37,115 bases of DNA, from the NCBI GenBank assembly GCA_015665315.1, contig JADFAK010000078.1, positions 1-37,115 on the forward strand, read 5' to 3'. Origin of the DNA: Flavobacteriales bacterium. GTDB lineage: Bacteria; Bacteroidota; Bacteroidia; Flavobacteriales_D; Sanyastnellaceae. The stretch's first letter is position 1, and each line of letters opens with the position of its first letter. This document shows positions 5,954-10,831 of this stretch, in pieces. The notes under the pieces were generated by a model. That model did not search any database and was not told the DNA's origin. It was given only the letters and a program-made list of their open reading frames with translations. Both the position numbers and the translations under genes were made by a program.

Positions 5954-7732
5954 ATGGGGTTGAGATTTACCATATCCCGAAAAATAGCCCTTGGGTTTGG
6001 GTTGTTCATTGTAGGAGTGGCTGTGCTCACATTTATTGTGAATCAAACTCTCAAAGATGGCTTAAATACGAACGATCAAATTTCTCTTGTTTACGCTCCT
6101 TCCCAACGCGCTCTTGAACGACTGGATAATCTTGTACTACGGTCCTACCAGTTAATGACACAATGGATCCATGTCCAATCGCGTGATGATGAAAAGTTTA
6201 AGTCCGAATTACGTCAGATTCTTGCTTCTTCCCTTCCCGAGAGCATGGAATTGGTCGATTCCCTATCACAAGCATGGACAGAAGATGATCACCTTACCAA
6301 AGACCGTCTTTTCCGTAATATTCAGCACCTTTCTTTGGCGTTTGACCAAACGATGAAAACTTTGCCAGATTTTTCATCCTATACCGATCCCTTTGCTAGT
6401 ATGTCAGCCGAACAAGCGCTGCTCCCTGGCGAGGTAATTGACGCTCCTTTTCAGAAAATTAGAGAAGACTTAGATACACTATTGTCTCACCAAGAAGCGC
6501 TCTTAAACGAGGCCACTGCCAAGGAAAATGCGTCATATCAGTCCATGTTCAATGTGTCATATTGGTTGATGACAATAATGATCCTTGTCGGCGTGGTGAT
6601 CGCACTGGTTGTGATTCGAAGTATTGTAAAACCAGTAAACGAATTGAAAAAAACCTTGCTCTACCTAGGAAAGGGTATTTATCCGAAGACGGAATTTAGA
6701 GTAGCCAACGATGAAATAGGAGACATGACTTTTGCGGTTAATCGCTTGGTAGATGGACTCAAAAAAACACGTGAATTCTCGCTGCAAGTGGGCGCCGGAA
6801 ATTTCAATGCGGGCTATACTCCATTGTCAGATGAAGACGAGCTTGGAGGAGCATTGTTAAAAATGCGCGATGATCTGGCCGAAAACGAGAGGCTACTAGA
6901 AAAAAAGGTTGAGGAAAGAACCAATGAGGTTGTTCGGCAAAAAGAACAAATTGAAAACCAAAAGGAAAGAGTAACCCTCCTTTATAAAGATTTAACCGAT
7001 AGTATTAATTACGCCAAGCGAATCCAACAAACAATCTTACCAACTGATGAGCAAGTACATTCACTTTTTGATGAGTGTTTTGTGCTCTATCGACCGAAGG
7101 ATATCGTCTCGGGCGATTTTTATTGGTTCAAAGCAAGCGGTAAAAAAAGCATTTTCGCGGCGGTTGATTGCACAGGTCATGGTGTCCCAGGAGCATTTAT
7201 GAGCCTTGTTGGCCACAATGTGCTCAATCAAGTAACCAAAGTGTTCACTAGACCATCTCAAATTCTGAATAATCTGAATCGGATGGCAATGGAAGTGCTA
7301 GATGGTGATGGAACCAGTCAAATCAAGGACGGCATGGATATCGCCTTGTGCACTTTTGACAAAGAAACGCTCGAGCTAGAATTCGCTGGAGCATATAATC
7401 CACTGTGGATAGTCCGTAAGGGAGAACTCATAGAGCAAAAGGCAGATAAATTTAGTATTGGTTCTTTCTCACACGGTGAGAATCAATTTACCAACCATGT
7501 CTACCAGTTGGAAAAGGGTGATTGCATTTACATCTTCTCTGATGGATATGCCGATCAATTCGGCGGACCCAAAAACAAGAAATTCATGCGCAAGCAATTT
7601 CGTGAACTAGTGGTGAATTCTAGTCCACTGCACATGGAAGAACAAAAGAACTTGTTAGAACAAGCCTTGGTCAAATGGAAAGGTTCGCAAGATCAAGTTG
7701 ACGATATCCTGGTGATTGGAATACGTGTTTAG
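5954..7732 (+). CDS. Membrane sensor with HAMP domain(s) and SpoIIE-type PP2C phosphatase output
   Basis: 592 residues. TM1 is at about 11-30, a periplasmic sensor region at 31-200, TM2 at about 202-222, HAMP at 223-273, a second HAMP-like or linker unit at about 274-316, a coiled coil rich in E/K/R at 305-350, and a PP2C-like SpoIIE phosphatase at about 365-592. Metal-binding motifs are intact: VSGDFYWF (385-392), AAVDCTGHGVPGAFMS (402-417), DGMDIALC (459-466), FSDGYADQFGG (528-538) and QVDDILVIG (581-589). It should dephosphorylate a serine/threonine phosphoprotein, classically an anti-anti-sigma factor, in response to a periplasmic signal. No STAS or anti-sigma kinase gene is visible here. 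Its stop overlaps the convergent universal stress gene. Confidence 0.9.
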   Translation: MGLRFTISRKIALGFGLFIVGVAVLTFIVNQTLKDGLNTNDQISLVYAPSQRALERLDNLVLRSYQLMTQWIHVQSRDDEKFKSELRQILASSLPESMELVDSLSQAWTEDDHLTKDRLFRNIQHLSLAFDQTMKTLPDFSSYTDPFASMSAEQALLPGEVIDAPFQKIREDLDTLLSHQEALLNEATAKENASYQSMFNVSYWLMTIMILVGVVIALVVIRSIVKPVNELKKTLLYLGKGIYPKTEFRVANDEIGDMTFAVNRLVDGLKKTREFSLQVGAGNFNAGYTPLSDEDELGGALLKMRDDLAENERLLEKKVEERTNEVVRQKEQIENQKERVTLLYKDLTDSINYAKRIQQTILPTDEQVHSLFDECFVLYRPKDIVSGDFYWFKASGKKSIFAAVDCTGHGVPGAFMSLVGHNVLNQVTKVFTRPSQILNNLNRMAMEVLDGDGTSQIKDGMDIALCTFDKETLELEFAGAYNPLWIVRKGELIEQKADKFSIGSFSHGENQFTNHVYQLEKGDCIYIFSDGYADQFGGPKNKKFMRKQFRELVVNSSPLHMEEQKNLLEQALVKWKGSQDQVDDILVIGIRV

Positions 7733-8559
7733 CTTTCAAATACAGAAGACTCGAGTACGTAGTTGTCTTTTGGATTTATACAGAGTACGGGTATTTGAGC
7801 CTCATTGGCAATTATTTGAGTCTCATAACTCCCGCCAATAATGTGCATCAAACTGCTCTCGTAAAAGTTCATTATGCACATTAAATCAGCGTCAACCGAG
7901 GCTGCATATTTCAACAGACTCTTCACGAAATTCCCCGACTTAGTTTCGGTGATCTCTACTTCCGTCTCAATTTCTCGCTCAGCCATAAATCGGCGTGCAT
8001 AATTCAAATTTCGCTCTAGCTGGTTCTTCAAGAATTCATCAGTTTCACCTGGAGAAACGAGGTAGACTTTTGAATTGAAGTACAAGGCCATATCAGCCAC
8101 AAGCTTCAACTTTTGTTTAGTCTCTCGATGCAAATCCAAAGGAACTACAATCTTGTCGTATCCTGATTCGCGGATTCCTCTCTCCTGAACAATAATAAAC
8201 GGAATTGAAGATTCGGTAACTATTTTAAGCGCTCGGCTACCCGTAATGAATTGCATTCCGCGCATTCCATGAGTACCCATGATAATCAAGTTAGCATCAA
8301 CTTCAGTCGCAACTTTATCGATGTCTTCGAAAATACTGCCTATACGGACAATAGTTTGAATCTGAACATTATGATCCTTCTGAATGCGAGCTTGAAGTGT
8401 TTCGAGCTTCAGCTTAGCTTCGGAAATATCATGCTTGTTATTGATGACATGTAGAATAAATATGGTCGCTTGAATAGCATGACCGACTACGATGGCGTGA
8501 TTTATCGCAGCGTCACCAACTTTTGTGAAGTCTGTAGGGACTAAAATCTTATTGTTCAT
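7729..8559 (-). CDS. Universal stress protein with two UspA domains
   Basis: 276 residues. Domain 1 (about 1-145) begins NKILVPTDFTKVGDAAINHA and contains GTHGMRGMQFITGSRA, the nucleotide-binding G..G...GS loop with one fewer spacer residue than the textbook spacing. Domain 2 (about 150-265) begins DKIVVPLDLHRETKQKLKL, but its equivalent loop reads NFYESSLMHIIGGSYE, without the G-x-x-G pair, so it probably does not bind ATP in the same way. No membrane segments. It has its own promoter on the minus strand and converges on the SpoIIE gene with overlapping stops (7729-7732). Tandem UspA proteins are common stress-survival factors; the exact role is not deducible. Confidence 0.9.
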   Translation of the reverse strand: MNNKILVPTDFTKVGDAAINHAIVVGHAIQATIFILHVINNKHDISEAKLKLETLQARIQKDHNVQIQTIVRIGSIFEDIDKVATEVDANLIIMGTHGMRGMQFITGSRALKIVTESSIPFIIVQERGIRESGYDKIVVPLDLHRETKQKLKLVADMALYFNSKVYLVSPGETDEFLKNQLERNLNYARRFMAEREIETEVEITETKSGNFVKSLLKYAASVDADLMCIMNFYESSLMHIIGGSYETQIIANEAQIPVLCINPKDNYVLESSVFES

Positions 8560-8581
8560 GGTTACAGGCTGTTTTCGAGCG

Positions 8582-8614
8582 CAAATGTAATATTTATCTA
8601 CATTGATTTGCCAA
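8582..8614 (-). promoter_or_regulatory. Promoter of the universal stress gene
   Basis: Read on the minus strand: TTG (8614-8612), 22 nt, then TACATTTG (8589-8582), an exact TAnnTTTG. Transcription would start near 8575, giving a leader of roughly 16 nt before the ATG at 8559. Confidence 0.65.
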
Positions 8615-8802
8615 TTTTAGCATGGCTTCTTGCCTCAGAGAGCTCATATCAGGGTCAAAGTGGAGGGAAGAACCCTTCGAGTTATGGAATTTAGGTTCGC
8701 TCCAGGTTCTCTTTTGTTGTACAAGTATTGGTAAGCCCATGTGACCCAATTATATCGGGTAACTAAGAAGATCTTATTAATCTGGATTTCACGGGATGTC
8801 GT

Positions 8803-8846
8803 ACTCTTTTCCCGTTGTAGGAAATTTCCTACAGCGGGAAAAGAGT
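8803..8846. repeat. 44-bp zero-spacer palindrome, possible + strand terminator
   Basis: Arms of 22 nt meet with no loop at GGAAATTTCC. The only non-complementary position is a T/G that forms a wobble pair in RNA. The + strand copy is followed by GTTTTTCTT, so it could terminate + strand transcription, yet no + gene precedes it. It could also extrude as a cruciform or bind a dimeric protein. Confidence 0.75.
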
Positions 8847-8885
8847 TTTTCTTACAGAGGTTGGCTAGCTCCGGATATACTTTTG

Positions 8886-8996
8886 TCTCGGTTGAATAAA
8901 CAGTACACCAGGTACTAATAAGTTAATTGAAATCAATTGAAGATTGCACCTTTCAATTAACTCTGAACTAAAGGAGGGTCAAAGGACCCTCCTTTG
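8886..8996 (+). ncRNA. Candidate small RNA or transcribed leader with three hairpins
   Basis: Downstream of TACTTTTG (8878-8885, an exact -7 box) lie: a hairpin AGTAC/GTACT with loop ACCAG (8902-8916); a 12-bp inverted repeat AGTTAATTGAAA / TTTCAATTAACT (8921-8932, 8951-8962); and an intrinsic-terminator-like hairpin (8970-8995). AATTGAA occurs twice (8925-8931, 8935-8941), so the right arm has two possible partners. No good -33 TTG is present (nearest 14 nt away). It does not match the fluoride riboswitch or any other class I know. Confidence 0.4.
8970..8995 (+). terminator. Strong hairpin upstream of the ClC gene
   Basis: Perfect 11-bp GC-rich stem AAAGGAGGGTC / GACCCTCCTTT with a 4-nt loop. 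The T stretch directly after it is short (TTTG), with CTTTTTT about 13 nt later. It would end a transcript from the preceding candidate sRNA promoter, or attenuate read-through into ClC. Confidence 0.6.
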
Positions 8997-9011
8997 TTAT
9001 TGCTACCTTTT

Positions 9012-9043
9012 TTGAAATTTGCCAGCAAGACTTACGATCTTTG
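9012..9043 (+). promoter_or_regulatory. Candidate ClC promoter
   Basis: TTG (9012-9014), 21 nt, then GATCTTTG (9036-9043), one mismatch from TAnnTTTG. The ATG at 9053 lies 10 nt after the box, so the leader would be a few bases at most. Confidence 0.4.
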
Positions 9044-9052
9044 TCACTTAGA

Positions 9053-10831
9053 ATGATTCGAAAGATTGTCAACAAGGCATATAGTTATGCCTACTCACTT
9101 AAGCTTAGTCACAAGCAAATCACAATGGCATTGGCAATTGCTGTAGGGTTTGTCTCTGGCTTGGTTTCTGTGGTGCTTAAGAATGGAGTGTTTTGGATTC
9201 AATGGCTTCTGGCTGAAGGGATTACCCAGGATAGCTACAACTTGTTGTACGTCTTGTACCCCCTCGTTGGGATTGTGGCAACTGTTTGGATCGTCAAGAA
9301 ATGGATAAAAAAAGATCCAGGTCCAGGTATCCCAAGCACGCTCTATGCGATAAGCAAAAGGAAAAGCACCCTCAGAAAGCACAATATCTACTCAGCTACC
9401 TTGACAAGTATATTTACTGTTGGTTTCGGTGGTAGTGCGGGTCTTGAGGCTCCAGCGGTTCAAACTAGTGCAGCAATAGGATCCAATTTGGGCGATGCTT
9501 TTAAGCTGAATTATAAAACAAAGACCTTGTTAATTGGTTGTGCCGCAGCTGGGTCATTGGCTTCGATTTTCAAAGCCCCTGTTGCCGCCATTATATTCGC
9601 GGTGGAGGTGTTCATGATCGATCTTACGACAGTAAGCTTGATCCCCCTATTGCTTGCGTCGATTTCTGCACTTTTGACGGCCAATCTATTCTTAGGCGAA
9701 GATTCATTGCTCCGCTTTCAACTCCGCTCGTCATTCGAGTTAGTTAACCTGCCTTTCTTTATCCTGCTTGGGGCTTTTACTGGGATCTGTTCTATTTATT
9801 TCTCCAAACTATATATGGGTATTACTCGAACTTTGGAGAAAGTTCGAAAAGTGTATGTCCGTGCAATAATTGGTGGCTTACTGCTGGGAATCATCGTTTT
9901 TGTTTTTCCTCCTCTTTATGGTGAAGGTTATGAAACGATCAATTCTTTATTGAATGATAATCTTGCTGGCGTCGCTAAAAACAGTGTTTTTTATGATTAT
10001 CGGTCCAGCGTGACGATGATGCTTATCTTCATGATGGGACTCGTGATTTTTAAAGTTGTCGCCACCGGACTCACCATTGGATCTGGTGGAGTTGGGGGGA
10101 TTTTTGCCCCTACACTTTTCATGGGTAGCACACTTGGATTTTTGTTTGCAAGGGTTTTTAAATACTTCAATATCACCGAACTTCCCGCGAGTCAGTTTAC
10201 TTTGGTGGGTATGGCGGGTCTAATGGCTGGTGTGCTTCATGCCCCTTTAACAGCAATTTTTATGATCGCGGAGATAACAGGGGGATATGAGTTATTTCTA
10301 CCTCTAATGGTCACTTCTGCTATTTCTTATTCAACTAGTCGCGCGCTTTCTCCCCATACTATCTATACCCAAGAATTGGCTAGCCGGGGTGAATTGATTA
10401 CCCATGATAAAGACAAGGCAGTCCTCACTTTAATGAACCTCAAAGAGGAAATTGAAACGGGATTCGTGGTAGTTCGAGACACATGTACTTTGGGGGACAT
10501 GGTAGGGGCCGTTAGGAAAAGCAAGAGGAATGTGTTCCCAATTACCGACGAAAAGAAGAGATTGGTGGGCATCATAACATTGGACGATATCCGAGAAGTG
10601 ATGTTTGACAAAAGCCTGTACAGTGAAATTAAAGTTAGTGATTTAATGGCCGCACCCCCTGAGCTGATTTACACCACCGACAGTATGGAGGATGTAATGC
10701 GCAAATTTGAAGATTCTGAAGCTTGGAATTTGCCGGTATTGGAAGGACAAGCGTACGTGGGATTCGTCTCGAAGGCAAGATTGTTTAATGCTTACCGAAA
10801 GTTATTGAAGGAAGCTTATGATACCGAATGA
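9053..10831 (+). CDS. ClC-family chloride channel/transporter with C-terminal CBS pair
   Basis: 592-residue polytopic membrane protein. ClC selectivity-filter segments are present: GPGIP (about 90-94, for GSGIP), GGSAGLEAP (gating glutamate at about 132, for GREGP) and GGIFAPTL (for GxFxP). The proton/gating glutamate is kept, but the usual R of GREGP is replaced and an L is inserted, as in a bacterial ClC subgroup. The last 130 residues hold two CBS motifs (FVVVRDTCTLGDMVGAV..., then KVSDLMAAPPELIYTTDSME...) that usually bind adenine nucleotides. The start is ATG 9053; TTG 9041 overlaps the candidate -7 box. The gene stands alone after a strong terminator and ends in a bidirectional terminator. 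Cl- channel versus Cl-/H+ exchanger cannot be settled from this alone. Confidence 0.92.
   Translation: MIRKIVNKAYSYAYSLKLSHKQITMALAIAVGFVSGLVSVVLKNGVFWIQWLLAEGITQDSYNLLYVLYPLVGIVATVWIVKKWIKKDPGPGIPSTLYAISKRKSTLRKHNIYSATLTSIFTVGFGGSAGLEAPAVQTSAAIGSNLGDAFKLNYKTKTLLIGCAAAGSLASIFKAPVAAIIFAVEVFMIDLTTVSLIPLLLASISALLTANLFLGEDSLLRFQLRSSFELVNLPFFILLGAFTGICSIYFSKLYMGITRTLEKVRKVYVRAIIGGLLLGIIVFVFPPLYGEGYETINSLLNDNLAGVAKNSVFYDYRSSVTMMLIFMMGLVIFKVVATGLTIGSGGVGGIFAPTLFMGSTLGFLFARVFKYFNITELPASQFTLVGMAGLMAGVLHAPLTAIFMIAEITGGYELFLPLMVTSAISYSTSRALSPHTIYTQELASRGELITHDKDKAVLTLMNLKEEIETGFVVVRDTCTLGDMVGAVRKSKRNVFPITDEKKRLVGIITLDDIREVMFDKSLYSEIKVSDLMAAPPELIYTTDSMEDVMRKFEDSEAWNLPVLEGQAYVGFVSKARLFNAYRKLLKEAYDTE

Follow-up and report, generated by a model that had tools for sequence, protein, structure and literature searches.

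A candidate response-regulator-controlled small RNA upstream of a ClC gene in the Flavobacteriales, probably one output of a multi-sRNA regulon

Analysis of the window (the whole 37,115-nucleotide stretch of DNA, contig C39 of the 4.6-Mb draft genome G000) suggests, with a probability of roughly 0.72, that positions 8890-8998 of the forward strand encode a free RNA (sRNA-1) that acts in trans and is activated by a response regulator which also controls the gene of the regulator RR2 and further small RNAs of a second family. The carriers are a group of uncultured Flavobacteriales. Judged from sequence, the window RNA probably belongs to a regulon in which a response regulator governs several sRNAs. 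In the mechanism proposed, a GacA-like response regulator of the NarL/FixJ family, probably RR1 or RR2, whose genes adjoin each other beside a hybrid kinase gene on contig C13, would bind a three-half-site array (GTAGGAnnnnTCCTAC, then TCCTAC 23-25 bp on; approximately -73 to -35) and activate the sRNA-1 promoter, and the same regulator would also control the RR2 gene and the second sRNA family. The product at 8890-8998 would be a free-standing, non-coding, terminator-ended regulatory RNA, and the RNAs of the regulon would act in trans on mRNAs, either pairing with them through conserved unpaired segments or titrating an RNA-binding protein. Little has been charted of small-RNA regulation in Bacteroidota, and since the operator, a candidate regulator and the set of RNAs can all be read from sequence, binding and regulon are directly testable.

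The predicted promoter of sRNA-1 contains an exact -7 box, TACTTTTG (8878-8885, + strand), matching the Bacteroidota consensus TAnnTTTG given in the accessible text of PMC6847099; the spacing reported there, with the G of the box at -5, places the predicted +1 at 8890. No good -33 box was visible by eye upstream of it. The gene (approximately 109 nt, 8890-8998, + strand) contains no ATG and is predicted to fold into a 5′ hairpin, AGTAC-ACCAG-GTACT (8902-8916; arms 8902-8906 and 8912-8916), a 12-bp stem (8921-8962; arms 8921-8932 and 8951-8962) with GAAGATTGCACC in its loop, and an intrinsic terminator identified by terminator scan (8969-8996), all on the + strand. The exact -7 box, the three hairpins ending in a terminator-like stem and the repeat of AATTGAA (8925-8931 and 8935-8941) reported in a preliminary description of this DNA were therefore all recovered. 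Folding of 8889-8998 yielded -35 kcal/mol (z = -4.80; none of 200 shuffles reached this value); as z falls to -1.95 without the terminator (11 of 200 shuffles as good), the excess stability is mostly the terminator's. A possible 4-bp pairing of the 5′ end (GGTT, 8890-8893) with AACT (8966-8969) is uninformative because it is unchanged in both species of the genus. Taken alone, TACTTTTG is within chance, as TAnnTTTG occurs 29 times on the two strands of the window, and terminator-like sites in 7500-10800 show little excess (4 found, 2.7 expected). What places the RNA gene beyond chance is its conservation in a relative from position 8890 onwards, together with an upstream operator array at a conserved distance. 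The Rfam search that had been proposed earlier gave no match reaching a gathering score, either for the window or for 17 related loci covering both RNA families, and the 12 matches below threshold in 8560-9100 included no riboswitch.

Conservation was evaluated by BLASTN against 60 genomes. The only strong relative of the window RNA was found in G001, a member of the same genus (g1), with 85% identity over 72 nt (E = 6 × 10−16) and the same synteny. Identity starts at 8890, the predicted start of transcription, and the first 27 nt, the 5′ hairpin and the loop motif GAAGATTGCACC are identical. Some match at E ≤ 1 was obtained in 39 of the 60 genomes; the next best (E = 2.5 × 10−4 over 44 nt) was unrelated by eye, and the matches read besides that of G001, in G032, G015 and G011, were all unrelated by eye. 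In G001 the terminator has been replaced by a different one with all 11 core pairs kept, six of them by two-sided changes (6/11), and the 12-bp stem retains 11 of 12 pairs, with a two-sided change in one (1/12) and a one-sided change in another. The preliminary description had called for covariance analysis, and these changes lend the structure support, two sequences making for no strong test. It is also worth noting that 24 bases of G001 (C18:4958-4981) match, at 92% identity and in antisense, the stretch 8884-8907, where the RNA begins and its promoter ends; with E = 0.011, this may be a target site or a coincidence.

Downstream of the RNA lies a gene for a ClC chloride channel/exchanger with CBS domains (9053-10831, + strand; Pfam PF00654, E = 3.7 × 10−83; PF00571, E = 5.5 × 10−13), and the preliminary description had left open whether the transcript is a free sRNA of about 100 nt or a leader that switches between conformations to control this gene. 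A cis-acting attenuator or riboswitch, in which transcription from 8890 stops at 8996 and reads into ClC upon re-pairing of the stem, is highly unlikely. The end of the terminator is 56 nt from the ClC start in the window, the two copies of AATTGAA could compete for one 3′ arm, and the RNA adjoins ClC in the carriers found (although ClC was the route to finding them). However, the second AATTGAA is lost in G001, and the near pairing is worse than the far pairing by 5.3 kcal/mol in G000 when the fold is forced (-9.7 against -15.0 kcal/mol) and by 4.2 kcal/mol in G001 (-10.9 against -15.1 kcal/mol), so the alternative-pairing stem previously suggested did not hold up. Neither the minimum free energy fold nor the centroid fold contains any pairing that would break the terminator. 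No Rfam covariance model matched at its cut-off, including the fluoride riboswitch, whose conserved sequence the preliminary description had noted as lacking. An attenuator would also need its sole promoter upstream of the terminator, whereas ClC has a box of its own downstream. In G000 this is GATCTTTG (9036-9043, + strand), a -7-like box with one mismatch that is the same in G001, and in seven of the nine sRNA-1 carriers an exact TAnnTTTG lies between terminator and ClC start (the end of the searched stretch being set by eye for G016 and G033). In G012 and G031 (genus g12) the ClC start is 240 nt past the terminator, behind its own -7 box. The separate ClC promoter of the preliminary description thus stands, and its conformation-switching leader does not. 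With this box of its own for ClC beyond the terminator, the locus is better explained by a free small RNA than by an attenuator, in line with the conserved start, fold, terminator and synteny and with the lack of an ATG.

The feature that carries most of the meaning of the locus lies upstream of the coordinates covered by the preliminary description, which did not mention it. This is a putative palindromic operator, TGTAGGAAATTTCCTACA (8816-8833; centre approximately -65 from the RNA start), followed by a third half-site, TCTTAC (8850-8855, + strand; approximately -40 to -35), 23 bp after the TCCTAC at 8827-8832. The operator position and the missing -33 box together suggest that the regulator activates the promoter. 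Within G000, TGTAGGAAATTTCCTACA was found at 13 places with ≤3 mismatches (two of which are probably one site on overlapping contig ends), compared to one for the backward control, and one of these sites precedes a NarL-family regulator gene. The operator is centred at -61 to -65 in seven of eight sRNA-1 loci, and at -48 in G002, where the array is approximately 13 bp closer. Across 114 genomes of the family, the composite pattern TAGGANNNNTCCTA-N36-60-TANNTTTG occurs at 25 places, 23 of them in genomes carrying RR2 (backward control: 9 places, 1 in RR2 carriers); although gaps of 36-60 were allowed, the gap is exactly 46-47 in 16 of the 25, with other gaps in the remaining 9. A looser pattern of two half-sites yielded 21 places in the 12 RR2 carriers against 10 for the control, located before RR2 (10), sRNA-1 (4), the second sRNA family (2) and a lipoprotein-like gene (3), with 2 unexplained. 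Alignment of 31 hand-chosen promoters (a 32nd ran off its contig, and six of the second family that lacked a clear -7 box were left out) showed GTAGGAA..TTCCTAC, then TCCTA (not in every promoter), then TAnnTTTG, with no visible -33 consensus; in it the palindrome is centred near -65 and the third half-site falls at approximately -40 to -36. A more permissive palindrome search (3 mismatches plus 4 N) was dropped, controls giving about as many hits or more in seven genomes. Around the operator, 8803-8846 forms an inverted repeat of 20 bp that includes a run of T and of which the core alone is kept in G001; this repeat may double as a terminator for transcripts from 8560-8800, where no gene is listed.

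On the other side of the array is a divergent gene for a universal stress protein (Usp) with two Usp stretches (7729-8559, - strand; Pfam PF00582, E = 1.4 × 10−28), and a SpoIIE-type phosphatase (5954-7732) is also near the RNA. By tblastn, Usp was found beside the RNA in all eight other carriers (66-80% identity) and beside ClC in G081, where no sRNA-1 was seen, and it was not found in the fetched ClC stretch of G015 or G034. That the operator serves Usp, with the RNA a mere by-product or a transcriptional insulator, seems very improbable: the palindrome TGTAGGAAATTTCCTACA was seen by eye before a Usp-like gene in G061, but at the present locus the array faces the RNA, separated from the -7 box by the 46-47 bp also seen before RR2, and is approximately 260 bp from the Usp start. 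Moreover, G081 keeps Usp beside ClC with no array seen there, and conservation extends to the RNA itself, both within g1 and among g2/g6/g12. Like palindromes with another spacing were also noted before the Usp-like gene of G061 (L086, C240) and before a small globin-like gene of G016 (L087, C86), both genes being named by eye. In a duplex scan of the RNA against 30 gene starts of the window, neither ClC nor Usp was among the best eight.

To follow the locus into other genera, ClC proteins were located in 76 of the 114 family genomes, and the stretches upstream of ClC were read at 30 retrieved loci (12 + 13 + 5). An RNA-like stretch with array and terminator stands between Usp and ClC in nine genomes from five genera, with an exact -7 box in seven of the nine. 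The full set of array, -7 box, terminator and an RNA 111-126 nt long was found in G002, G006, G012 (whose -7 box has one mismatch), G031, G016 and G033, and the G025 locus was found through R1, a covariance model built from the G031 and G012 RNAs. R1 matched G002 (E = 2.9 × 10−7), G025 (E = 3.9 × 10−6) and G006 (E = 1.0 × 10−4), with seven more matches at E = 0.30-0.94, and gave no significant match when extended to g1, g16 and g18. The RNAs of G031, G012, G002, G025 and G006 share ACTTTTAGCAAA, and those of g16 carry CACTTTAGCAAG. Local alignment related the G016 RNA to those of G002 (p = 0.007) and G031 (p = 0.008), with p = 0.12 for G006. Comparisons of the window RNA and its same-genus relative with other genera were not significant (shuffle p = 0.10 for G000-G016, 0.84 for G000-G002 and 0.47 for G001-G016); beyond the genus its tie is therefore positional, by position, promoter and terminator. 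In total, sRNA-1 with an array before it was found at the ClC locus in nine of the 12 RR2 carriers. It was not found in the other 102 family genomes by R1, operator pattern, loci read or BLASTN (the last for 60 genomes), a search that would miss a diverged RNA, as R1 misses even the g1 and g16 forms. The three remaining RR2 carriers (G015, G081 and G034), in which no sRNA-1 was seen at ClC, may hold it elsewhere. A degenerate-pattern search of wider genome contigs gave 12 places: four were the g2, g6 (two) and g12 loci, on contigs of metagenome-assembled genomes labelled Flavobacteriales or Cryomorphaceae, two (L139 and L140) were coding-like by eye, and the other six were in unrelated organisms.

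Two further stretches were observed near these loci. In g12 (L035 and L033), a second operator-like array with an imperfect -7 box and a terminator-ended stretch lies between the RNA terminator and ClC and may represent another sRNA in tandem with the first; its likeness to the g1 RNA was unsupported (local alignment p = 0.40-0.43). In G034 (L085, C40, 1501-1640), a palindrome and an exact -7 box with a gap of 37 and no third half-site precede a hairpin-rich stretch without a long frame, a possible sRNA of g18, for which the R1 score was not significant (4.6 bits, E = 1).

A second sRNA family was recognized in G000 and G001 from terminator-ended stretches downstream of arrays that contain TAGTAGTTAA...ATTTGGTTAAG. 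This pattern occurs at 15 places in 10 of the 114 genomes, all of them RR2 carriers, and at none in the 102 others; its backward control gave 0. Four copies are in G000 (C24, L186/L197; C35/C22, L069/L204; C50, L067/L206; C68, L208) and three in G001 (C87, C230 and C246), and an array precedes six of these seven (imperfect at G001 C246, none at G000 C68). Over all 15 copies, two half-sites 23-25 bp apart were found before 13, counting some degenerate half-sites in forms chosen after looking, and every copy is followed by a hairpin (-16 to -21 kcal/mol). Nine copies have an upstream -7 box, TAnnTTTG or TAnnCTTG; in five of the other six, a box with one mismatch stands at the usual distance, and the last, in G015, has none. 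The core repeats GUUAA two to four times, and in several genomes further copies stand in tandem by eye.

The candidate regulator RR2 is a 215-aa protein with Response_reg and GerE domains, for which the closest solved chains are VraR, NarL and DevR. Its best NCBIfam model was UvrY/SirA/GacA at 163.7 bits, below the equivalog cut-off of 280. In G000 its cluster (contig C13) comprises, in order, a receiver, a receiver-PAS-HisKA_3 hybrid kinase, RR1, an array, RR2 and a receiver-SpoIIE phosphatase. Of the 114 family genomes, 12 have an RR2 orthologue (≥80% identity), in every case with an RR1-like second match beside it and an array before RR2, degenerate in G031, G012, G016, G033, G015 and G034. 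Sixteen genomes of genus g10 have one response regulator match at 60-65%, and a search of 299 genomes of the order gave matches at 1e-85 in 13, all of this family (the 12 plus G118, at 65%). If genomes were independent, the probability that all carriers would fall among the 12 by chance would be 3.4 × 10−11 for sRNA-1 and 9.7 × 10−13 for the second family; as they are not, the values by genus (1.0 × 10−3 and 1.3 × 10−4, respectively) are fairer, and because the carriers are related, the co-occurrence is partly descent. It is unlikely that the array is read by another NarL-family protein and not by RR1 or RR2. Each genome offers many candidates (up to 66 in one at a first look) and the site before RR2 could reflect cross-regulation, but RR2 and the arrays largely coincide over the 114 genomes and no RR2 carrier lacks the array before that gene.

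Several sRNAs under one response regulator are familiar from LuxO/Qrr and CiaR/csRNA. The wiring proposed here is known from other phyla, and no description of it was found in Bacteroidota: titles and abstract starts of the open literature, outside which most subscription papers lie, yielded no response-regulator-driven sRNA set from this phylum. Among the closest parallels is Gac/Rsm of Pseudomonas (GacA, RsmX/Y/Z), likewise combining a NarL-family regulator, an 18-bp palindromic upstream site and several sRNAs. The GacA site in the accessible text of PMC4950607, TGTAAG-N6-CTTACA, agrees with TGTAGG-N6-CCTACA here in 10 of 12 bases, with one symmetrical change per half; in contrast, the window promoter has an extra half-site near -38. 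CsrA (PF02599) was detected in none of the 114 family genomes, against 3 of 14 control genomes, Escherichia coli among them, and 8890-8998 has no repeated unpaired GGA, with GGA only in the terminator hairpin. Together with the RR2 score below the GacA cut-off, this indicates that the system is not a member of Gac/Rsm. That Bacteroidota possess their own Gac/Rsm-like switch without CsrA, in which a NarL-type phosphorelay (clustered as in G000) would drive at least two sRNA families, one of them multicopy and partly in tandem, that titrate an RNA-binding protein, is a tentative and on balance doubtful reading. Three further systems were compared by description, from the accessible text of the papers. 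LisR/LhrC1-5 of Listeria (PMC4132741 and PMC5880928) also has several related sRNAs under one response regulator, though in another phylum. FopS/GibS and RbpB of Bacteroides (PMC11697453) share the phylum and paralogous small RNAs (14 copies); unlike here, their promoters are called canonical sigmaABfr, and the text leaves any further regulator of the multicopy FopS sRNAs open. Rfp18 of Flavobacterium psychrophilum (PMC9723704) is a structured sRNA from the same order that affects mRNA levels, described in that text with no mention of a response regulator.

The operator was also observed before protein-coding genes. By eye, two half-sites and a -7 box precede a lipoprotein-like gene in G015, G002 and G006 (L176, L179 and L189), the leaders of which share GTATAACTTT, making this gene a possible protein member of the regulon. 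Operators also stand before receiver-like genes at L066 (G000:C40, minus strand), L089 (G001:C33) and L065 (G000:C106); the first two genes are receiver-like by eye and the L065 gene was identified as Response_reg by Pfam.
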